From the NCBI RefSeq assembly GCF_032118995.1, contig NC_092657.1:9921391-9985390 (forward strand): a DNA stretch of 64,000 bases. The letters run 5' to 3'. The first letter of the stretch is position 1. Each line of letters starts with the position of its first letter. The position numbers and the translations under genes were made by a program. Below are positions 16,059 through 55,626 of the stretch, in pieces. A model generated the notes under the pieces. The model saw only the letters and a program-made list of their open reading frames with translations, was not told the DNA's origin and searched no databases. This DNA comes from Asterias amurensis (taxonomy: Eukaryota; Echinodermata; Asteroidea; Forcipulatida; Asteriidae).

Positions 16059-16189
16059 GTAAGATAAATAGGCTACTTTTGTACTGACCTGTCTTTAGTC
16101 CACAAGTGGGAGTGGAGTTGCTCACGAAAGACACGATTGTACTCACGACTACACTATACTATGGTGGCCCTGAAGGGACACAGCCAGTC

Positions 16190-16440
16190 ATGAATATTTT
16201 TTGCGACATCGTGAATATTTTTGCGCTGTCGTGAATATTTTTGCGCGTCGTTAATTTATTCACGAAATGTCGCGAATTTTGTCATGGCTAGTCGCGAATA
16301 TTGTTACGATGTCGTGAATATTTCTACTCCTAGTCGCGAATAGTTTCTTGATTGGTCGCACATACTTTGACGACTAGTCGCGAATAGTTCCCCTGACGTC
16401 GTGAATAATTCTGCAACTAGTCACAAATATTTTTTGTTGC
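16190..16440. repeat. Minisatellite, about ten degenerate 24-28-bp units
   Basis: Units of the type GTCGTGAATATTTTTGCG alternate with CTAGTCGCGAATATT. The core TCG(C/T)GAATA is constant; the T run and the spacer vary. CpG-rich compared with its surroundings. Confidence 0.85.
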
Positions 16441-17219: not shown

Positions 17220-17930
17220 CCTACAGGTTTGTAAAAACAACTACATAATTTTGTTGGTAGGTTTTTAACCTAATTGTTCTACAGGACTGTGTTTAACCCG
17301 CTTTTTTCACAGGCTTATGTTAACGTTTTCCTTTTCAGATTTTTTTTTAACCTTTTCCTTTTCAGATTTGTACATAACGTATATTTTTCTGCAGGTTTTC
17401 TAACCCTTTCTTTTACAGGTCTATATTTACCGCTATTTTTTCACAGGTTTATATTTACGTTTTCCCTTTCAGGTTTGCACATAACTTTTCCTTTTCAGAT
17501 TTGTACATAACGCATTTTTTTGCAGGTTTTATAACCCTTTATTGTACATAATTGTATTAACCCCAATTTTTTCACAGGTTTATGTTAATGTCTTCCCTTT
17601 CAGGTTTGTACATAACTTGATTTTGCAGGTTTTATAACCTGTTATACTGCAGGTTTTTAAAAAGTTTTCCTTTACAGGTTTGTAAATATTTACTATTTTT
17701 ACAGGTTCCTGTTATTGACTACATTATTTTTACGGGGTGATGTTAACCCATTTTTTCTTTACAGGTTTTTACATAATTTATTTTTCGCAGGTTTAACCCG
17801 TTCTTTTACAGGGCCTTGTTAACCCCATTTATTTGCAGGTTTTTTTCACTTTTTTCTTTCACGTCTGTTAATTAATAATCAATTTTGTACAGGATTTATA
17901 ACCCGTTCTCTCCACAGGAATGATTTAACA
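17220..17930 (+). repeat. Array of about 23 polypyrimidine-CAGGTTT units upstream of a Penelope-like ORF
   Basis: A degenerate 25-27-bp tandem repeat with consensus near TTTTnnCAGGTTTnTAnnTAAC. Clear copies have their CAG near 17224, 17282, 17310, 17363, 17391, 17416, 17445, 17470, 17522, 17575, 17600, 17626, 17650, 17676, 17701, 17762, 17788, 17836, 17889 and 17915. Every unit is a T-rich tract followed by CAG|G, the shape of a 3' splice acceptor. The array ends about 30 bp before the ATG at 17963. Confidence 0.85.
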
Positions 17931-17962
17931 ATTTTCCCCTTTACTGTATTCCCCCATCCATT

Positions 17963-20010
17963 ATGGCACTTGCTCCCGACACCAAGTGCATTTTCCGCAA
18001 GCTTCGTAAGCTTAAGGAAAAGAACACCCGTTACATGTCACATCTTGATAACTACCGTTTTTATCGTTTGTCCCGTATCATTCCCAAAGGCCTACAGATC
18101 AAGTGTACCCCTTCCTTTGGGGACCTTGACCCATCCTTTTTTAAGAAAAGGAGCAAGACACTCACTAATACGTCTTTCCGTTTGATCAAGTTGCTGGAAA
18201 ATCAATGCCAACAATTCATTGATAACCAGTTGCTTGAGATAACAGACACTGAGTCTCAACTCCAGGAGTCGTGTTCCATTGAAGAGTTTGAACAGTTACA
18301 AGATACCATACTATGTAACGTCAAACACTTAAGGTCCACCCTAATGGTCACACAGAACAAGAAACGTATGAATGTCCTGGCTAACCATAAGAAACACACC
18401 CATAGACGTTTCCACAGTAAGAGAGCCAGCATTGCTCCTCCCACTGTTAGGTCGCCAGAGACCAATACTGTAGTTAACCTGTCTGACATGGTCCTTACTG
18501 ACCCACAGGTTAAACTCCTCTCAAGGGGTCTTAAGTTTTGCCCCACACCCAGAGAACCTAACCAACTTCTTTTCCAACAGGACATGGCCCAATTCAATCG
18601 TAGGTTACGTCTACGTGAATACTTTCATGTAGAACCTTCCATGGATGACGAGTCATCTGTGGAGACCAAACCCATTCCCCGCAACCGCTTCAAAGAAAAG
18701 AGTACTTGGGTACCCCCTAAGAACCGAGATGTGTCTCTAGGGACATACATCAATTCGGTTAACTCCGAGGTTCTTAAGGCCCCCAGTACCCCTACTCCCA
18801 ATAACCTCCCCCAAGATGAGCGGCACGCCCTTACACAACTCCGCCAATCACCAGACGTAGTGATTAAACGGGCTGACAAGGGGTCCGCAGTTGTAGTCAT
18901 GAACACACATGACTACATTGCTGAGGGCCTTAGACAGCTCAGTAACACTGATCATTACATTGAATGTGCTTCTGATCCCACGGAATCTTTCTCCCAAGAT
19001 ATCAGTGACACCCTGGTTAGGATTTATAACGCCAATGGTATTGAGAAAGATACATTTAACTATCTCCTCCCACATGACCCCCGTACAGCAAGGTTCTACC
19101 TTCTACCTAAGATACAAAAGCCCAATAACCCGGGGAGACCTATTGTATCTGGGAATGGTAGCCCCACAGAGCGCATTTCTGAGTTTGTCGATAGCTTCCT
19201 CAAACCCTTAGTCTGCTGTATTCCTTCCTTCATCAAGGATACCAAAGACTTTCTCCACAAACTAGATGAGGTCAAGCACCAAATACCTGACTCTGCTATT
19301 TTGGTTACTTTTGATGTTTCATCACTGTATACTAATATACCCCATCATGAAGGCATGAGTGCATGTGTCTCTGCCCTCAATGCTAGGAATCAGTCCCGCC
19401 CCTCAGTGAGTCATATTAAGGAACTCATGAGCCACATTCTAATGAAGAATAATTTCACATTTTCTGACAGGCATTTTCTACAGGTACAGGGTACTGCCAT
19501 GGGTACCAAAAGACTCCTGTCCTCCGCCCCCAACCGACCACTAGTTTGGTGGAGATTGATTGATATTTTCTCCATCTGGTGTGGTGACCAAGACAGCTTG
19601 GATGAGTTTACTAACCATATCAACTCATTTCACCCCACCATAAAGTTCACTACCGAACAATCTCTCACCAGTGTGAACTTTCTAGATGTGACAATAACTA
19701 AGTCTCCTAATGGCCTTGTCACTGTAAGAAAGCAATTGCTTACAGTCAGGCCTTACGTATCAGGCGTATCTGTTCCACAGATACCCTGTACAAGAGGCGC
19801 TCATCAGAGCTAAGGAAACACCTTGTATCTAAGGGACACAGCGAACGTAGGGTCCAACTTGCTATCAACAGGGCTCTCAACGTACCTCGTCATACTCTGT
19901 TGACTAACACGGGAGGTGAAAAAGCTCCGACCAATAGAGTTGCTTTGGTCACCACCTTCCACCCCAAACTACCCAAACACCCAGTTTATACGACGGACAA
20001 GATGACAATC
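17963..20010 (+). mobile_element. Penelope-like retroelement, reverse transcriptase ORF
   Basis: The ORF starts at ATG 17963 and is open for 616 codons to 19813. The N-terminal half is basic (KLRKLKEKNTRY). The RT core follows in Penelope order: RADKGSAVVVMNTHDYI, ARFYLLPKIQKPNNPGRP, GSPTERISEFVDSFLKPL, LVTFDVSSLYTNIPHHEG, FLQVQGTAMGTK, then RLIDIFSIW and SVNFLDVTITKSPNG. A short stretch expected between GTAMGT and the catalytic box is missing, and that box has one Asp (LIDIF instead of a DD pair), so activity is unlikely. After a frame change near 19750 the tail goes on: YSQALRIRRICSTDTLYK, LRKHLVSKGHSERRV, then RVALVTTFHPKLPK. The GIY-YIG endonuclease usual in many Penelope elements is absent, so it is 3'-truncated. 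Confidence 0.92.
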
Positions 20011-24755: not shown

Positions 24756-24890
24756 AGACTTTTTGCCAATCACTAAGAGAGGGTGCTCGTCACAAGATAG
24801 TCGAGAAGTGTGTGACAGACGTACATATACGTCGTAAAACAACTAAACAAGTTGTACTACTGCCTGTTTTATGTGTTTTGGTTCAACACA

Positions 24891-25100
24891 ATGCCAAACA
24901 CGTCGTGTGCCGTACCAAATTGTTCTGGAACAAGACAGACTGGACATGAGTTCCCAAAAGATAAAAAGCAGTGTGCTGAATGGCGAGTAGCTATCCGTAG
25001 AGTGAAAAATGACAAGGGCGGATATTGGTGGCCAACCGCCTGTGACATGGTTTGCTCGAAGCGCTTTTTGGAGACGGACTACGATAAGTATGGAAAATGT
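24891..25100 (+). CDS. THAP-type zinc finger exon (His position replaced by Arg)
   Basis: ATG at 24891 opens MPNTSCAVPNCSGTRQ, with FPKDKKQCAEW, WWPTACDMVCSKRFLETD: the THAP signature (C-x4-C, conserved Trp, FP, late Cys). In THAP domains the late Cys is followed by x2-His; here the motif reads CSKRF, so the fourth zinc ligand is Arg. A weak donor (AA|GTATGG near 25088) follows the domain; the frame runs on to a stop at 25169 with unrelated sequence. THAP fingers bind DNA in host regulators and in P-type transposases. A P-element transposase relic is present at 47.3 kb but is too far to be the same gene. Confidence 0.7.
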
Positions 25101-25734
25101 GTATACAAACTCAGCATTAGGACTTGGTCAGGCTCTATCTCTTGCCTTAACTTTCAATTCATCGCGTAAATTTGAGTAGGCGAACATGACACATGACAGT
25201 GACATGATTGATAAGATTATAAACCAAACAAACGTTATAGGTTTAACATGTTTAACAACTAAAATACTATTGCGCTGTGTTGTGTACTGTTTCATAAAAA
25301 GGGCTAGAAATAATAAATAATAGCCAGTATTTATAAAGCGCAAAAAGCAGCGGCATCGAACCGCTGTTAACAAACATAAAAATCTTGAGCAACAAAATAG
25401 ACAATCTAAAAAATACCTAATGCTACATTCAAAATGTTCACGAACAATAAAATAATATTAACATCAACAATAAAAGTTAAAAAGTACCAAAAGTCTTTCA
25501 ACACGAAATGAATTGAGTTGTGGAGTGCGGAGCTTCAGTGAAACCGTTGAAAAACTTGTACTACCGTAGGAGACCATGTTGGAAGACTATTCTTGGAGGT
25601 GTAGTGATGAGGAAAGAAAAGGACGGCATGGTTGATACAATGAAATAGTGTTACGAAATGGTCGATTGAGGGCGTCGTGAAGAATCAAACCTAGTTTTGA
25701 GCACAATGGGTCAGTTGATAGTATCGAGAGGGGT

Positions 25735-29644: not shown

Positions 29645-31165
29645 AAAACAATAACTCAAAAAGGACTCTGTGTAGCAACTCCTATCTGAGCGGGGCATTT
29701 GTGTTGTAAACTCACCATTCCTGTTAATGTTTTTTATAAAATACTAAATCCTTGTGGTATATTTCCCTCAATTGGATTCACGTACTTTTCTGCAAGCAAC
29801 GCTCGCTGACAGGGGTTGATGGTGGAGCTAACGAACAGAAGGGGGAGGGGCAATAAGTTAAGAGTAAATTCACCGAATGTGTAGTCTTATCGCTCCCGCT
29901 CGCCGGCATTTGGAGGGGTCACAACAAAAAGTTTCACAGTATGTACTAGCAGATTTGTATCGGCAACGCCCAGCTAAGGAGGGTGAGGGGGGCAATTGGA
30001 AGAGATGTTTAAAGGTAGGGAAATTTTAAGCTTCGTCAAGTAAACTACAAAAAAAATTAACATAAACGAAAATGTGAAACTAACTGATCAACTTCTTTGC
30101 TTAGCAAAATTCAGGGGGCACTTTTCACAGGAACGTAAGGCGCACGGTCCATGTTAGGCCGGTTCGGCTACCATCACACGATTGTCAAACGATTACAGTA
30201 GCAAACGATTCAGCAGTGATTGTGAGACGATTGGGGGATAGGTTCTTCAAACGCTTCAGTGCGCTGAGCTCGTCTGGTCGTCCGGAGTCCAAACAAAGGG
30301 GCTATAATCGGATTACTGTCCATTGTGTTGGGATTATAGCTTTGACTGTTCGGTCTATGAGTACAAAATAATCTAACGCTTTATTTCTGCGCAGTGTTTT
30401 TTCCATTTCTAAAATACTCGTCAAAAGAGACCACACATACTTTTTTTAATCGTGAAAAACGATGAAGTATAACCTGACATTCTACTTTACCTGTTTTGTC
30501 ATGTATTAACTGGTTGGCTTCGCCTAGCGCTGGCAACGTCAATGTACCTCACATGGGTACATCATGTACATGTGTACTCGATTAGAGCGTTCGAGACGAA
30601 CTAAATTTTTGGTTGGTTGTGACCAACTAAGAATGTTTCCCAACTAATGTGTTTGTTTTTAACAAACTTATGACCAGGTTGTTGAATTTGGGTGTGATCT
30701 GCAAATAGGATTGTAATCAGTACGTCCTCGTCAGGTTTAATTTTGAATACTTTTAATTTTAAACATACTGTTGGCATTGAAGAAGAAATACCATTGCATT
30801 AATAAAAAGACTGCAATAAAAAATACCTAATATATGTGAGTGCAGTTGTTTCTTTTATGCTTGATTGGAATAAATTTACGGATCTTATTATCCGAACATT
30901 TTGTTTTACACTTCTCGTTTTTCAGTTTAAAATAAAACTCTCTATGTTTAAGGTTGATCAGATAATCTCGTGCTTTAATATAAATTTGTTTCCTGGAAAA
31001 GCGACATAAATTTGGAGTTAGATTTTGGGGGAAATCTGAAACATAACTATTAGAAATCTGTGAAATTATAAATGAATAGTTGAATCACTTTTTATTACAA
31101 AGACGCATCATGTTAAATCTCTTTCTTGAATGTGTGTGGCTCTGAAAAGAGCCGTTTGGTTTGTT
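29645..31165. other. No gene recognised
   Basis: AT-rich spacer. Near 29820-29840 and 29970-29995 there are two G-rich stretches (GGGGGAGGGG, GGGTGAGGGG) in similar context, probably a repeat. Confidence 0.35.
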
Positions 31166-31170
31166 TGAGA

Positions 31171-31230
31171 GAAGGTTTCTCTCCTTCCTCAGGGTTTCTA
31201 AGAAGGTTTCTCTCCTTCCTCAGGGTTTCT
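31171..31230. repeat. 28-bp tandem duplication
   Basis: AAGGTTTCTCTCCTTCCTC plus AGGGTTTCT occurs twice in direct succession, overlapping the end of the minus-strand DDE-like coding region. Confidence 0.85.
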
Positions 31231-32950
31231 TGAACTTGTGGATGAGACGATCGTGTCGGTCCATGTCGGCTGCACTCTGAAAAACCTTCTTGCATCCTTG
31301 CTTGCACCTTCGCTGTTCACCTGAAAGTGTCGACTCAAGACCCTCGTCTAAGTCTGCAAACAAGCGTTCCCGCAGTCGCCCTTTTAGCCATATCATGCCA
31401 TGCCATGAAGTGATGTGGATGTTGCTCCGATGGTTTCGGCGTGAAGTTGTAGCCATTTGCAAACTCAAGTAAAAAGTAATCAACTTCTTTGCGCGAATCG
31501 GCCTCTTGGAACAATGACCACAGGAAGAGGACTCACACTTCACAAATTTCAGCTGAAACGACCGCTGGGCAGAATGACGGGAGAGAAATTGAAATTCCTC
31601 TGCAAGATCACTTAGAGTATCGTCTCGCTGGAATTTTAGAAGGCTTGCAGTGGTGAGTTCCTCAATTTTGGCCTCATCTGTGTGCTGTGTTGAACGGCAA
31701 GGAACAGGGACTATGTTCAGGGGGAACAAGTCGTAAACTCTTCCTTTCAGGCAGCGGTGGACGTCATCAATCGCCGTCTCATGAACAATTGCCTCTGGTT
31801 TCCCTCGCTTGTTGTGTCATTTTTGTTTGTTCTTGTGGAGTCTTTTCCTCTCCGGGTACACTTGCCCTTTTAGCTGAAGCCCTGTTAACCACATAGTCAA
31901 GGGGACCCATGAGTGTTCTACCATGTTCAACCTACTGTCCCTAGGTCAATATGACACAATGCACAAGTAGTCGAGGTTCAAGTCTCGCCAAAGTCGTCCA
32001 ATCATTTGGACTACCTTCAAACTGCTTGTTCCAGTCTGGCCCATTGTCTGATATGATTACGGTGGTGTACTTCCCGTCTTTTTCGTTGACTCTTTGAATT
32101 AGTTGTTTGAGGTCTTCATGGTGATTAAAGACGGATGCTTTGTGAAACTTGTTGCCCCGGAGATAGATGGAGAGTGGACCAGTTCTGGGATAGTTGAAGT
32201 GGACACGGCCTAGCTTGTCATGTCGATATTTTGAGGTGGGTAGCTGACTGGTTGCCAGGTGATGGAGGTTCTTGAGATGGTGTCTTGACGTGCTGTTTTG
32301 GTGATGGCCGGTGAAGAAGCTGCATATACCCGCTTGGTTTAATTTGGTACCCAGTTGAGAAGTTGTGGTCTGGATAATGTACCATGTCATTTCTCATGAA
32401 GTACGATTTAAAGGACATCCTTCTATCGACACATGGACCCCCTCCTACAAGTAGCTTGTTGTTGTCGTCCACTGACCATGCTGACACCTCATCTTCAAAA
32501 CAAGTGGCCATCTCAAGAGCGTAATTCACGGAGCTTCGGCAAAAATTAGAGTTTTTGTTTTCCTTTGCTACATCATTTGCATTCACGCCAATTTTTGCGT
32601 CAATAACTCCATGATATATGCATGGCGGCTACTATGGGATGCGACAAATAAGCGTTTGATGGAGCTCACTGATTGACTTTGGCAGGTCGGAAACTTCAGG
32701 CCTATTCAAAACTTCACTCGTCAATCTCTGTGCCGTCACACCAACAGGTGACCAAGTTTCTGATCTCCTCCGATGTGCTGCAAAACCATGATCAAGTAGA
32801 CTCTCGGTAACAGTCTGAACGAGGTTAGGATGTTTTTCATGCAAAATCTTCCTACCCCGTTTTTGAGGTAAAGTATCGCGTGCTTGAGAGGTGTTTAGAT
32901 CGAAGAGCCGTTTCCTTGACAGTGGGTGTGCCGATGCCTGCATCGGTTGC
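31220..32950 (-). pseudogene. DDE-like transposase-type protein with C-terminal zinc finger, family unassigned
   Basis: Minus strand, read from 32943: KRGRKILHEKHPNLVQTV and AAHRRRSETWSPVGV; then (32586-32218) SNFCRSSVNYALEMA, SAWSVDDNNKLLVGGG, NDMVHYPDHNFSTGYQI; after a frame change, YPRTGPLSIYLRGNKF and VIISDNGPDWNKQF (32230-31941); a frame change to MVEHSWVPLTMWLTG; then ELTTASLLKFQ, LKFVKCESSSCGHCSK and a C2H2-like finger CKQGCKKVFQSA with DRHDRLIH (31729-31220). Two Asp-bearing blocks (VDDN, SDNGPDW) and an E in the VEHSW block give a DDE-like pattern. I recognise this as a multi-copy invertebrate protein family but cannot name its superfamily. At least three frame breaks. Order of blocks is intact, so nearly the full length is present. 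Confidence 0.6.
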
Positions 32951-43220: not shown

Positions 43221-43569
43221 TTAACGGGACACGTTGCATCGGATCCGTCGAATTGGTCAATGAAAAATGTTTGAAACCGTTTGATATGAAATGTATGTGG
43301 TTGGACAGATGTTTTAAAAGAACAATAAAATAATCCAAACATCCAAACAAACATGCCTCGAAAGTGAGTGGTTTTTCTTTTAACAAACACGGCCGGCTAT
43401 TTTGTTTACTCTACGAAATTGCCGACAGTATGTGTTCGCAACGTTAAAGAAAAACCACGCAAATTGGAGGCATGTTTGTTTTGTTTGTTTTACACATTTC
43501 AAATCAAACGGTTTCAAACACTTTTTTCATGGACCAACTCGACCAGTCCAAGGCAACATGTCCCTTTAA
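43221..43569. repeat. TTAA-ended MITE, family A, copy 2
   Basis: TTAACGGGACACGTTGC at the left, GGCAACATGTCCCTTTAA at the right. Inner arms match copies at 1-344 and 50202-50600 but the central palindrome is weaker, so this is the most diverged copy. Confidence 0.8.
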
Positions 43570-50201: not shown

Positions 50202-50600
50202 TAAAGGAACACGTTGCCTCGGATCGGTCGGGTTGGTCTTTGAAAAGCGTTTCTAACCGTTTGTTATGAAATGCATATGGGTAGAAAGATCATATAAAAG
50301 TAGAATACAATGATCCACACAAACATGCCTTTAAATTGCACGGTTTTCCTTTTACCTCGTCGTCGACGAACCCGGTCGGCCAGTTATGGGAGTCAAATTT
50401 TTGACTCCCATAAATGGCCGACCGTGTTTAGTAGTTCGCACAGTAGAAGAAAAACCAAGCAATTTTGAGGCAAATTTGTGTGGATCATTGGATTCTACTT
50501 TTATAACATCTTTCCAACCCTACGCATTTTATAACAAACGGTTACAAACACTTTCTATAGACCAACTCGTCCGATCCAAGCCAACAACGTGTTCCTTTAA
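50202..50600. repeat. TTAA-ended MITE, family A, copy 3 (complete)
   Basis: Left end CTAAAGGAACACGTTGCC, right end ACGTGTTCCTTTAA; central palindrome ATGGGAGTCAAATTTTTGAC then TCCCAT. The two halves pair over almost the full 400 bp. The best preserved copy in the window. Confidence 0.85.
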
Positions 50601-50939
50601 ACTATCTTTATCGACTTGTTCTTACATGTTGGGTATTTCACCAACCTGTTAATTACCACAATGGCATTTTACCGCAAATCACGTGCCATTTTGATGATTT
50701 GTTTGTACAGCAACCATCTCTACAAAAACATAATTTTTGATTCTACAGCCCTAAATTGCGTAAACAGTGAGCCGGTGTGTCCCTTAAAAAAAGACAAAAG
50801 CAAAAGTGATAATAATTATCTAGCTATTATATATATTTGGTTTGCGGTAACACCATGTTTGTATATCTACTTGCCAGGTAGAATTGGACTACTGGACTAC
50901 TACTTAAGCGATCGTAATAACTGTACTGCCGCGGAGTCA

Positions 50940-51000
50940 GTTCGGAGTTGGTCTCAACGTTTCGACTAGCTTGGATCTAGTCATCGTCAGGAGACTGAAG
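50940..51000 (-). mobile_element. Penelope-type tail fragment, copy 3, with hammerhead-like core
   Basis: Minus strand: CTCCTGACGATGACTAG, loop ATCCAA, GCTAGTCGAAACG, TTGAGACC. CTGACGA fits CUGANGA; GACTAG and CTAGTC pair as helix II with one extra base, then GAAAC. It abuts the palindromic array that starts at 51003. Confidence 0.55.
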
Positions 51001-51002
51001 AG

Positions 51003-51790
51003 GTTCATGGTTTATAAACCATCCAAAAACGTGCACTGAGAAATCATGGTTTAAAAACCATAAAAAATGTGCACTCAGAAATCATGGTTTACAAACCATA
51101 AAAGTGTGCACTCACAAATCATGGTTTATAAACCATATAAAACGTGCACTCACAAATCATGGTTTACAAACCATAAAACCTATACATGTATGATCGTCAC
51201 AATTAAACCTCCTTCCCAATTCTGATCGGTTCCCTATTCCCCCATGCCACGTGCGAGCCAGCAAAGATGCAATGCACCGTCACGCTGTGATCAATGCACC
51301 GTGTGTGTCATGCTGCCAGCTATAGCAAGCATTCAGAGCTAATATTGCATCAGCATTATACAACAGGTGCATTGAACACAGCTTGACACACATGGTGCAT
51401 TGCATCATTGCTGGCTCGCACGTGGCATGGGGGAAATGGGAACCGATCAGAATTGGGAAGGAGGTTTAATTGAGACGATCATGTAGGTTTTCATGGTTAG
51501 TAAACCATGATTTCCGAGTGCACACATTTTATGGTTTGTAAACCATGATTTGTGAGTGCACGTTTTTATGGTTTGTAAACCATGATTTCTGAGTGCACAT
51601 GTTTATGGTTTGTAAACCATGATTTGTGAGTGCACATGTTTATGGTTTGTAAACCATGATTTGTGAGTGCACGTTTTTATGGTTTGTAAACCATGATTTG
51701 TGAGTGCACATTTTTTATGGTTTGTAAACCTTGATTTCTGAGTGCACATTTTTTATGGTTTGTAAACCATGATTTCTGAGTGCACGTTCA
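51003..51790. repeat. Fold-back element: macro-palindrome with arrayed palindromic units
   Basis: Left array (51003-51180): about five units with a (T)ATGGTTTATAAACCAT palindrome and GTGCACTCAC. Centre: left arm 51185-51318 and right arm 51365-51485 are inverted copies (for example ATTAAACCTCCTTCCCAATT against AATTGGGAAGGAGGTTTAAT, GCCACGTGCGAGCCAGCAA against TTGCTGGCTCGCACGTGGC-type). Right array (51490-51790): about nine units in the opposite orientation, ATGGTTTGTAAACCATGATT, TGTGAGTGCAC. Unit length 31-37 bp. Confidence 0.9.
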
Positions 51791-51869
51791 CAGGCTGATG
51801 CTAGCATCCGTGGTACTTGAAAACTTCAAAGAATTTGGCATGACAAATACGTAACACAAAAAACAAAAC

Positions 51870-52327
51870 TGCGGCTCGTGAATGCACTGGTTTATCCAGT
51901 TCTTTTATACAGCGCAGCAGCCTGGACCATCAGGAAAGCAGACCAAAAGAAGTTAGAAGCTTTCCAAATGCGCTGCTTGCGCAAAACCCTGAACATCTCC
52001 TGGCAAGACAAGGTGCGAAATGAAGAGGTGTGGAGGAGAGCGTCAGCTGGTGGTAACCCACCAGAGTTGATCACTTCACGCATCCACAAGATCCGACTTT
52101 CCTGGTTTGGCCACATAGTGAGAATGAAAAACAGCAGACTTCCAAAATGCATCCTTCTTGAAACAGTAACTGGAAAAAATAGACGGGGTAGGCCTCGGAA
52201 GAGGTGGGAAAACGACATTATCATGAACAGCACCTTCTACCTGGAACATCGAAGAGCGCAAGATAGGCAAGAGTGGAAAAAGAAAATTCGTGGAGCCAAC
52301 GTCCTGCGGGATACGGTGCAAGATTGA
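51870..52327 (+). mobile_element. LINE C-terminal domain fragment inside the palindromic array
   Basis: Open frame of 149 codons: LVYPVLLYSAAAWTIRK, KLEAFQMRCLRKTLNISW, DKVRNEEVWRRASAGG, KIRLSWFGHIVRMKN, RLPKCILLETVTGK, RRGRPRKRWENDI. This is the region behind the RT domain of LINEs (FQ.RCLR.IL.I.W.D..RN..V, RL.W.GH..RM, RRGRP..RW.D). Array units continue right after it at 52330, so the LINE entered the array. Confidence 0.85.
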
Positions 52328-52329
52328 TT

Positions 52330-52400
52330 GATTGAAACCATGATTTCTGAGTGCACGTTTGTATGGTTTATAAACCATGATTTGTGAGTGCACATTTTTT
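52330..52400. repeat. Continuation of the palindromic array
   Basis: Two units (AAACCATGATTTCTGAGTGC and TATGGTTTATAAACCATGAT) between the LINE piece and the next insertion. Confidence 0.85.
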
Positions 52401-52411
52401 ATGGTAATTGT

Positions 52412-53905
52412 AGCCTTGATCAAGGCTGTTGACGTACTGTTCCCCGGCCCGGTTCGCTGCACACGCATGCAGTGCATACACAAATGTACATTACCATACA
52501 TTGTACAGCGAGAATAGTATAGCGTAGTCGTGAGTACGGTCGTGTCTTTCTACTTTCAACCTCGCACACGTGGCTCAAACAACAGCCTTGATGGGTTTGT
52601 AAAGCTTTATCGGAATTCCGATAAAAGGGTATTCATGATGTGGGCGTGTCATTCTAAACATTGGCCAATCACAGGCGCGATTGAGAATGACGTATTACTG
52701 CAAGCAATCATGCCACGTCCATGCATGCATGCGTGTGTGTGTGTGTGTGTACGCTGTACGCTAGCTGTATGGACATGTACTGTAATACGTGCTTTTTATA
52801 GCAGTGTCGGGAGCGTGGTGTGTATATTAGCTATGATTGTAAGGGGTCTGAATGCGCTGCCGGACGGGTGAGCCGGACAAGACTTGCCCGGACGGTAATG
52901 GTGTTGAACAACTTCGAACAACTTCCGTTGTCTTGCGTTTCATTATAACACGAGGACTAGCATCATAATTACAACGTAGCTGGTAGATTTGTCCCTGAAT
53001 TGAAAGCTGCTGTACTATAAGTGTAACGTTGTAGTGTAGTACTAGTAGTATGGCAAGAGTTAGTTTATGAAATTGAACTTTACTTGTAGTACAACACATA
53101 TTTTCGATCCCCAACTTTGATTTACCGCGAGAAACGTAATAAATAATATATGTCTACATTAAGACAAAATAAACAGCTGGGTTTCTTATCTCATCTGGTC
53201 TGTGTTTGTGCTTCAAGGGGATGGGGTGTGTTGTACTGTCATATGCCCAACACCTAAGAATTCTTACCAAGTAGCCATCTTGCCGGAAACCCATGACACC
53301 TGGATACTTTTTTAACCTTTCTCAAACACATTTCACATGTTCTAATTTTCTTCCTTCTATTTCTAAACCCATGATTGATGCATTAAACGCGGTTGTTATA
53401 TTTTGTTGAAAGTTTCTGTAGTTGTGTTGCAAATTATACACCACTGATTTCCAGCGACTTACTGTTTTGTTTTACTAGTAGGGATTTCTCCCTCGCCCGC
53501 CGCCATTGCAACTACAACCACGGTTTGTTTACAATAACGTCGACGAGCACGTGTGTGCGAGTGCTTGCAGAACGTTGTGATTGACATCGCAGCGAGAGTT
53601 TATAGGTCAACCAACAACCAATGAGAACGGGTTGTTAGTAAACATTACCATAATGAGCTCCGCCCTAAATTTTGGCAGATACAAAACCATCAAGGCGCTA
53701 CTTAGGAAGTACCCATGTACCGTAAGTGTACCGTATACAGATGGTACATGTACATGTACATGTACATGTACAGTACGTATGTGTGTACATACGCTGTATA
53801 CGTATTATATGCACTGTGTTATGTATGGGGGTGCACTGGTGGAATTCAGTGATGGGGACTGGGATTTTGCAGATTGCGGCTGGCTGTAGCGCCTTGATCA
53901 AGGCT
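52412..53905. mobile_element. 1.49-kb element with palindromic 16-bp terminal repeats and 11-bp target duplication
   Basis: Left end AGCCTTGATCAAGGCT (52412-52427), right end CGCCTTGATCAAGGCT (53890-53905); each end holds the self-complementary GCCTTGATCAAGGC. The target ATGGTAATTGT stands on both sides (52401-52411 and 53906-53916) and belongs to the array unit. No transposase frame is evident; the interior has a (GT)n run at 52733-52750 and TACATG repeats at 53743-53772. Duplications of 9-11 bp are usual for MULEs, but the family is open. Confidence 0.75.
53743..53772. repeat. TACATG microsatellite
   Basis: Five uninterrupted TACATG/GTACAT units followed by related TACGTATG words. Confidence 0.9.
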
Positions 53906-53916
53906 ATGGTAATTGT

Positions 53917-54430
53917 AAACCATGATTTGTGAGTGCACACTTTTTATGGTTTGTAAACCATGATTTGTGAGTGCACATTTTTATGGTTTGTAAACCATGA
54001 TTTGTAAGTGCACATTTTTTATGGTTTACAAACAACGTTTTTGAGATGTGTAAATTTTCATGGTTTATAAACCATGGTTTTTAAGATGTCTCGATTTTCA
54101 TGGTTTATAAACCATGTTTTTTAAGAAGTCTCGATTTTCATGGTTTATAAACCATGATCACTAACCATGATTTTATGTTTCATTTGTTATCGTTTATTAA
54201 CCATGATTTGTTAACCCCGATTTTTATTCTTCAATTTTCATGGTTTACAAACCATGTTTTTTAGATGTCTCAATTTTCATGGTTTATAAACCATGATTTA
54301 TAAACCATGAATTTGATGCTTCAGTTTTTATGGTTTATTAACCATGTTTTTAAGATGCGTACATTTTCTTGGTTTATTAACCACGATTTGTAAATGTTTT
54401 GTGTATGTTCATGGTTTGTAAACCCTAAAC
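53917..54430. repeat. Palindromic array, distal part
   Basis: Units continue in the right-array orientation. From about 54030 the spacer changes from TTGTGAGTGCACATTT to TTTTTAAGATGTCTCGATTT, so a diverged subfamily with the same TTTATAAACCAT core takes over and fades by 54430. Confidence 0.85.
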
Positions 54431-54434
54431 TTAT

Positions 54435-55085
54435 ACACAACAAATACTTTACTGGTATGTTAACCATAACAGCATTTGGCAACAGTTTCAATGGTTTACA
54501 TCTAATTGCTGTAAACAATGGTAAAAACATGCCTTAATGGACAACGGCGCCCCATAGTATACCTTCACTTCAGAACAAGCAAAGTACAAAATTCAAATGT
54601 ACAATGGTAAAGGCGCACTAAAGCAAAATGACTGATTATGAACGACAAAGTGTGGCAACTAAAACGAATTGGTGACAAACGTCAAATTTATTAAAATAGT
54701 TTGCCAAACTTATAATAATTCGAAAAGGCGAGGCGGGGGAAACATTTCCGTACAAAGAGTCATTTGACATGATTAAAATTAGAAATTGGGTTCATTCCTT
54801 GTCAACAACTAACAAATAAATTGTTCTTCTTTTTGTGTCATGTACATGTGTGCTTGGAATTGCCCATACGCGTATTCCGAAATAGCATCGCTTGACCAAG
54901 AATTTAATTTGATCGACAAGGCAAAAACGCGACGTTTGTCTTGATCACGACCACCGCTTTGAAAAAAGTTTGCGCTACGTGGCAAATTCATCCAACTTTT
55001 TGAGTTTGACAAGTTATGCCAAAGTTCACCGAGAAACCTTCTGATAATTGTATTTTTACAAGAGTAATATGCGAAAAAATATGTC
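54435..55085. other. No gene recognised
   Basis: No supported ORF or repeat. Confidence 0.4.
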
Positions 55086-55087
55086 GG

Positions 55088-55252
55088 ACGATGGGGGTGT
55101 TGGATCATAGCGGTGTCGGATTATAGGTCCATTTGTCGGAACATAGGGGTGTTTGAACATAGGGGTGTCGGATTATAGTGGTGTCGGAAGATAGGCCAAT
55201 TGTCAAATAATAGGGATGTCGGAACATAGGGATGTCGGAATAAAGGTGTGTA
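55088..55252. repeat. Minisatellite, 15-19-bp units
   Basis: About nine units of the form ACATAGGGGTGTCGG with variants ATTATAGTGGTGTCGG and AAGATAGG. Confidence 0.85.
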
Positions 55253-55626
55253 ACCGGGCTTTTCATACCAAATTCTTTACAAGCGTACGCGATTGCTAAT
55301 GCCAAACAGACAATGTTTTCCTGCTTGATCGAGATAAGGTACTACTTTGAGAAGTCTTCCAAGCACCACTATATAATGAAAGGAGTGCAGACCTTATGCG
55401 GTACAGCAAACCACAAATAAATGAGAGCATGTATGGAAAGAATTACTATGTCTTGAAAAAGTCCTGAACCGATTTTTGGAGCAAAGGGCCAGCTAGAATA
55501 CTTTAATGGGGAAGCTGGCCGTGGGTCAAAATAAATACAGATAAATAGGTTTCAAGTCAACCGAAGAAACATTAAAGCAATACAGCAGGAACATATGGTA
55601 AACAGACTGTAAGATTTCCGTGTTAA

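Follow-up and report, generated by a model that had tools for sequence, protein, structure and literature searches.

The locus analyzed here occupies positions 51005-51790 of a 64,000-nucleotide stretch of the genome of the sea star Asterias amurensis (contig NC_092657.1, positions 9,921,391 to 9,985,390 of the forward strand; hereafter the window). It is a composite inverted repeat, in which two tandem arrays of the same unit face each other in opposite orientation around a gapped inner inverted repeat of ~135 bp.

The full inverted alignment of this 786-bp segment scored 452, whereas the maximum over 200 dinucleotide shuffles was 44; among 148 other places of the window cut alike (10 starts over the array region being skipped), the best score was 175, at a place overlapping a separate palindromic element (50202-50599). 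Folded as single-stranded DNA, the segment gave -334.9 kcal/mol, whereas 20 shuffles averaged -97.3. The left array contains five cores (51008, 51047, 51085, 51122 and 51160, with a spacing of 39, 38, 37 and 38 bp) and the right array, up to its first interruption, eight (51494 to 51756, with a spacing of 37-38 bp), in the opposite orientation. Indeed, the left array scored 284 against the reverse complement of the right array, and 79 against the right array as it stands; array direction is unambiguous because the linker of the unit is asymmetric (GATTTSTGAGTGCAC...). A previous reading made from the letters alone (the sequence-only reading) had described a fold-back palindrome with unit arrays in opposite orientation, and these scores bear it out. 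Its figure of about 115 bp for the central arms has to be replaced by 89 nt for the ungapped alignment (51190-51278 and 51394-51482, 96% identity) or ~135 bp for the gapped one (51179-51315 and 51356-51489; 116 matches, 12 mismatches and 15 gap columns). The arms have diverged by ~9-10%, with gaps, and differ in their number of units.

The junction between array and inner domain is common to both arms and lies in the same phase, with a core followed by AAAACCTA and then by ATGATCGTC; its two copies differ by a 1-bp gap, a 6-bp gap and a few mismatches. That this junction is shared in inverted form argues for a single composite inverted repeat rather than for the insertion of a palindrome into a uniform array.

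The unit has a period of 37-39 bp in both arrays, instead of the 31-37 bp initially proposed. Read in the orientation of the right array, it consists of a 14-bp core, most often TGGTTTGTAAACCA, and of an asymmetric linker of ~23 bp (GATTTSTGAGTGCAC plus a T-rich run). The view that each unit is itself a palindrome is therefore right for the core and wrong for the linker, the palindromic part of each unit being the 14 bp of the core only. Two subfamilies, A and B, are distinguished. The core TGGTTTGTAAACCA, in which six of the seven pairs are formed, occurs in ten subfamily-A units, and the exact core TGGTTTATAAACCA in three subfamily-A units (51008, 51122 and 52364) and four subfamily-B units. 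Four unit stretches had no occurrence in the literature searched, which says little since repeats are rarely printed in papers.

As already noticed in the sequence-only reading, the right array extends to ~54430 and includes the second subfamily; it turns out to be split by two later insertions. The locus is laid out as follows (TRF, Tandem Repeats Finder; the basis of each assignment is given in brackets).

51005-51178, minus strand: left outer array, five subfamily-A cores, outermost unit cut off (TRF, 4.6 copies; cores 51008-51160; orientation test)
51179-51315, plus strand: left inner domain of the inverted repeat (alignment to the reverse complement of 51356-51489)
51316-51355, no strand: centre (loop) between the inner arms, with limits set by us (middle of the palindrome; in the left arm, the best local alignment extends no further than 51315)
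51356-51487, minus strand: right inner domain of the inverted repeat (inner-arm alignments)
51488-51788, plus strand: eight subfamily-A units forming the first block of the right outer array (TRF, 8.0 copies of 37 bp, 92% matches)
51789-52334, plus strand: first later insertion, 546 bp, ending in ATTGATTGATTG, with an open frame of 168 amino acids (aa) (flanked by an exact 25-bp direct repeat)
52335-52412, plus strand: right outer array, second block, subfamily A (core listing and insertion repeats)
52413-53904, no strand: second later insertion, 1492 bp; its ends are short and inverted (GCCTTGATCAAGGC), and the 13-bp direct repeat TATGGTAATTGTA stands on both sides (repeat and end alignment)
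53905-54021, plus strand: right outer array, third block, subfamily A (period restored without both insertions)
54022-54430, plus strand: subfamily-B part of the right outer array, in which the core is kept and the linker changed; the units measure 39-51 bp and form a ~90-bp higher-order pattern (TRF periods 40, 51 and 90; units R12-R21)

The 25-bp repeat that flanks the first insertion occurs exactly twice in the window (51764 and 52335), and the 13-bp repeat of the second only at 52400 and 53905. Once both insertions are removed, 12 cores fall into register, with a spacing of 38, 37, 37, 37, 37, 38, 38, 37, 38, 40 and 37 bp across both joins. We take the first insertion and its 168-aa frame to resemble the 3' end of a non-long-terminal-repeat retrotransposon; Pfam returned no match for it. 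The ends of the second insertion are 14 bp long and self-palindromic. Part of this insertion (37 bp, 52514-52550) recurs in inverted orientation at 16126-16162 (92%), and the latter stretch is adjoined by a degenerate array (16187-16433) of ~20-22 bp units of the GTCGTGAATATTTTTGCG / GTCGCGAATAGTTTCACGAC type, self-complementary by eye.

The two arms also differ in how their units relate to one another. Five cores were counted on the left and 21 are listed on the right, and positional pairing of the units across the centre is not supported: when four left units were assigned to seven right ones, 779 of the 840 assignments were as good or better. From this lack of pairing by distance from the centre, we infer that the tandem repeats of the two arms probably turned over independently. 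Variation of arm length by sub-repeat turnover, a Foldback-type trait, is thus found here, in a single copy.

We think it reasonably probable that the locus is the remnant of a decayed, non-autonomous Foldback-like DNA transposon, with tandem outer domains and a unique inner domain. In each of its terminal inverted repeats, tandem units of 37-39 bp would make up the outer domain and ~135 bp of unique sequence the inner one, the two repeats enclosing a centre of ~40 bp. The element would have moved by means of a transposase supplied in trans, for which the palindromic core of the unit may be a paired binding site, and the arrays, by analogy, might raise the affinity. Unit number would then have drifted through unequal exchange, and the left end may have disappeared, or the sequence that adjoins it at 51003 may have truncated it. 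Long inverted repeats made of tandem sub-repeats, together with an inner domain, are present as in Foldback-type elements, their terminal position within an element being putative. The architecture is supported, while membership in the Foldback class is not established; the object is of a known kind, with an unfamiliar sequence.

Several observations weigh against this interpretation, beginning with the borders. No outer terminus is common to both ends: the left flank compared with the reversed right flank scored 36, and the best of 32 controls scored 37. Thus, of the Foldback/Galileo-type element initially proposed, the inverted sub-repeat arms with an inner domain are recovered, whereas outer termini common to both ends are not. 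The left edge, possibly truncated, abuts at 51003 a sequence without relatives in the window, and on the right the array gradually fades out around 54430. Target duplications were sought as exact repeats of 7-13 bp between 50901-51012 and either 51781-51800 or 54381-54560. Only GTTCATGGTT emerged, a 10-bp direct repeat located at the two outermost units (51003 and 54407) and nowhere else in the window. The target duplication anticipated by the sequence-only reading therefore has one candidate, of which at least 7 of the 10 bases are unit sequence, making it ambiguous as a target duplication and possibly a chance occurrence.

Coding content and relatives add to this side of the balance. No transposase was recognised: the four frames of at least 110 aa in 51005-54430 had no Pfam match at 1e-3, and Pfam, run over 14 window frames in all, found only one reverse transcriptase and one THAP domain. 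Note that non-autonomous copies would be devoid of a P-type transposase anyway. Rfam returned no gathering-level match in the region; the sub-threshold matches over the array in 50600-55300 (e.g. MIR827, 34.4 bits versus a cut-off of 65) are taken as an effect of the hairpin-rich repeat. Within the 64-kb window, the sole match of the centre is to its own inverse, with no second copy. Collections of viral contigs, genome contigs, phages and plasmids were scanned as well, none of them meant for animal genomes, so that misses say little: neither the unit pattern nor the inner-arm pattern matched the viral contig or genome contig collections, the inner domain had no match among phages, and the 786-bp palindrome had none among plasmids. 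The palindromic element that neighbours the locus likewise gave no match among viral contigs or plasmids. A single viral-contig match to the subfamily-B pattern was rejected as chance: the matching contig has no tandem repeat, and its similarity to the array is confined to 24 bp in one hairpin-like place.

The conservation of the palindromic core likewise has two sides. Within subfamily A (15 units, without L5, which is cut off, and the aberrant R9b), bases off consensus amount to 2/180 in the half-sites and 9/240 in the 16-nt linker (Fisher p 0.13); within this subfamily alone, the half-sites are not clearly better kept than the linker. When subfamily B (R12-R20, n=9) is compared with the A consensus, differences amount to 5/108 positions in the half-sites, 11/18 in the two central bases and 70/144 in the ungapped linker, and the contrast between half-sites and linker is large (Fisher p 1e-15, although units are not independent). 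However, this contrast is biased because the B units were picked by core similarity, and the count omits the last unit, R21, as well as the second core-like copies present in the long units R15, R16 and R18 (that of R18 has one mismatch, at 54294; those of R15 and R16 were judged by eye). Moreover, with gaps allowed, the linkers of the B units are 51-70% identical to that of A, i.e. above the ungapped value. The large but biased contrast between half-sites and linker suggests putative paired protein-binding sites.

A local origin without any transposon is a serious rival, which we nonetheless regard as doubtful. A minisatellite could have undergone an inverted duplication at one site, for instance by template switching or hairpin-mediated repair, taking ~135 bp of unique neighbouring sequence along. 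The centre without a second copy in the window, the missing common outer terminus and the lack of a clear target duplication would all be accounted for, as would a right array that is far longer than the left one and whose units become more divergent outward, as at a minisatellite edge. By contrast, composite terminal repeats have just this organisation, with arrays flanking an inner domain, and the window contains several other palindromic elements. The latter, some of them similar in size, together with the two other insertions that the array hosts, could also speak for a palindromic miniature element inserted independently into a pre-existing tandem array. That scenario is largely refuted by the orientation flip and retains very little likelihood: a one-way array would keep its orientation on both sides, whereas here it is reversed (284 versus 79), and the array/inner-domain junction is itself present in inverted copies. 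No rival accounts for this shared junction as well as the Foldback-type architecture does.

An assembly or amplification artefact is improbable to the same degree. Inverted repeats are prone to misassembly, but a false inverted join should give near-identical arms, and those observed differ by ~9-10% with several gaps; unit numbers differ as well, and in the right arm both later insertions still have their direct repeats intact. Helentron-type elements, in which a central tandem array runs one way between unlike ends, do not fit, since here two arrays face in opposite directions on either side of a unique centre. We further considered a reading that goes beyond a Foldback-like remnant and that we hold to be unlikely, namely that the locus represents an undescribed animal foldback family, in which near-perfect palindromic sub-repeats would be kept under constraint as paired transposase sites, with selection on symmetry at two scales (half-sites and arms), and in which one arm would be growing into an emerging satellite array.

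A genome with moving palindromic elements is plausible because the window holds others, one of them in three copies. The latter (2-345, 43221-43569 and 50202-50600) is a near-palindromic element of ~350-400 bp with 65-86% mutual identity, and likely a miniature inverted-repeat family. Elsewhere in the window, the THAP DNA-binding domain (PF05485, E 1e-7) lies in frame 24816-25166 on the plus strand, ~26 kb from the array and with no shown link to it; THAP domains are found in P/Galileo-type transposases and in host genes. An AT-rich tandem array of ~131-bp units (17250-17907) immediately precedes an open frame of 629 aa (17924-19813) that resembles a Penelope-type reverse transcriptase, although Pfam returned no match for it. 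A pattern from this frame matched twice in the viral contig collection, and neither match was a relative. On the minus strand of the left flank (50930-51002), a short stem motif, GACTAG...CTAGTC, can be seen by eye beside CTGACGA and GAAAC. It recalls what we take to be the hammerhead-like motif of Penelope-type elements and was reported neither by Rfam nor by a scan for the hammerhead ribozyme core, whose only two candidates, both weak, lie outside the left flank. Finally, a frame of 198 aa (31220-31816, minus strand) is followed, 61 nt downstream of its stop, by a histone 3' stem-loop (RF00032, 41.7 bits; 31114-31158, minus strand). This frame has no Pfam match and so does not seem histone-like; two perfect 31-bp repeats overlap its stop. 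The histone stem-loop, the THAP domain and the appearance of the mobile elements are in keeping with an animal genome.

Foldback (FB) elements of Drosophila melanogaster have long inverted arms of short tandem sub-repeats. FB elements are referred to for their sub-repeat arms in PMC4079207 and PMC3169594, and our locus resembles them in its inverted arms built from short tandem sub-repeats, a likeness of description; it differs in that no target duplication is established here. The terminal repeats of Tm1 from root-knot nematodes (PMC3169594) are likewise composite: the number of their 13-15 bp tandem sub-repeats varies, which makes the arms of one element unequal in length. Tm1 nevertheless possesses defined outer motifs, 9-bp target duplications and, in some copies, a Phantom-like transposase. 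Mcmar1 of Meloidogyne chitwoodi, as reported via PMC3169594, is a Tc1/mariner-like element, and no such transposase was recognised here.

Galileo, of the P superfamily (PMC3573991, PMC3688188), shares long terminal repeats with internal tandem repeats, which are however ~210 bp long in subfamily F of D. mojavensis, compared to 37-39 bp here, where moreover no transposase was recognised. The tandem repeats of the Galileo arms are stated to turn over independently (PMC3573991), and the missing positional pairing of our units fits such turnover. Two sites in the Galileo terminal repeats bind the THAP domain of the transposase in vitro, transposition itself not having been reconstituted (PMC3688188).

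Tetris of Drosophila virilis (PMC4079207) has composite terminal repeats and, like our locus, no conserved open frames; its units are of ~220 bp, and it differs further by an extra external flanking domain, target duplications of 8-10 bp and three structurally complete copies. The 10 bp of GTTCATGGTT fit the Tetris range of target duplications, an agreement in size that we do not count as evidence. A target duplication of ~8-10 bp is the size argued for Tetris in connection with the Mutator and Phantom superfamilies (PMC4079207), and no related transposase was recognised among the Pfam-scanned frames. With one copy observed, the locus is chiefly of value as a well-preserved case of nested repeats. 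Should the element recur in the genome, its palindromic unit would be a concrete candidate for a transposase binding site, and the locus would be an independent case of composite terminal repeats becoming satellite-like arrays, as proposed for Tetris (PMC4079207).
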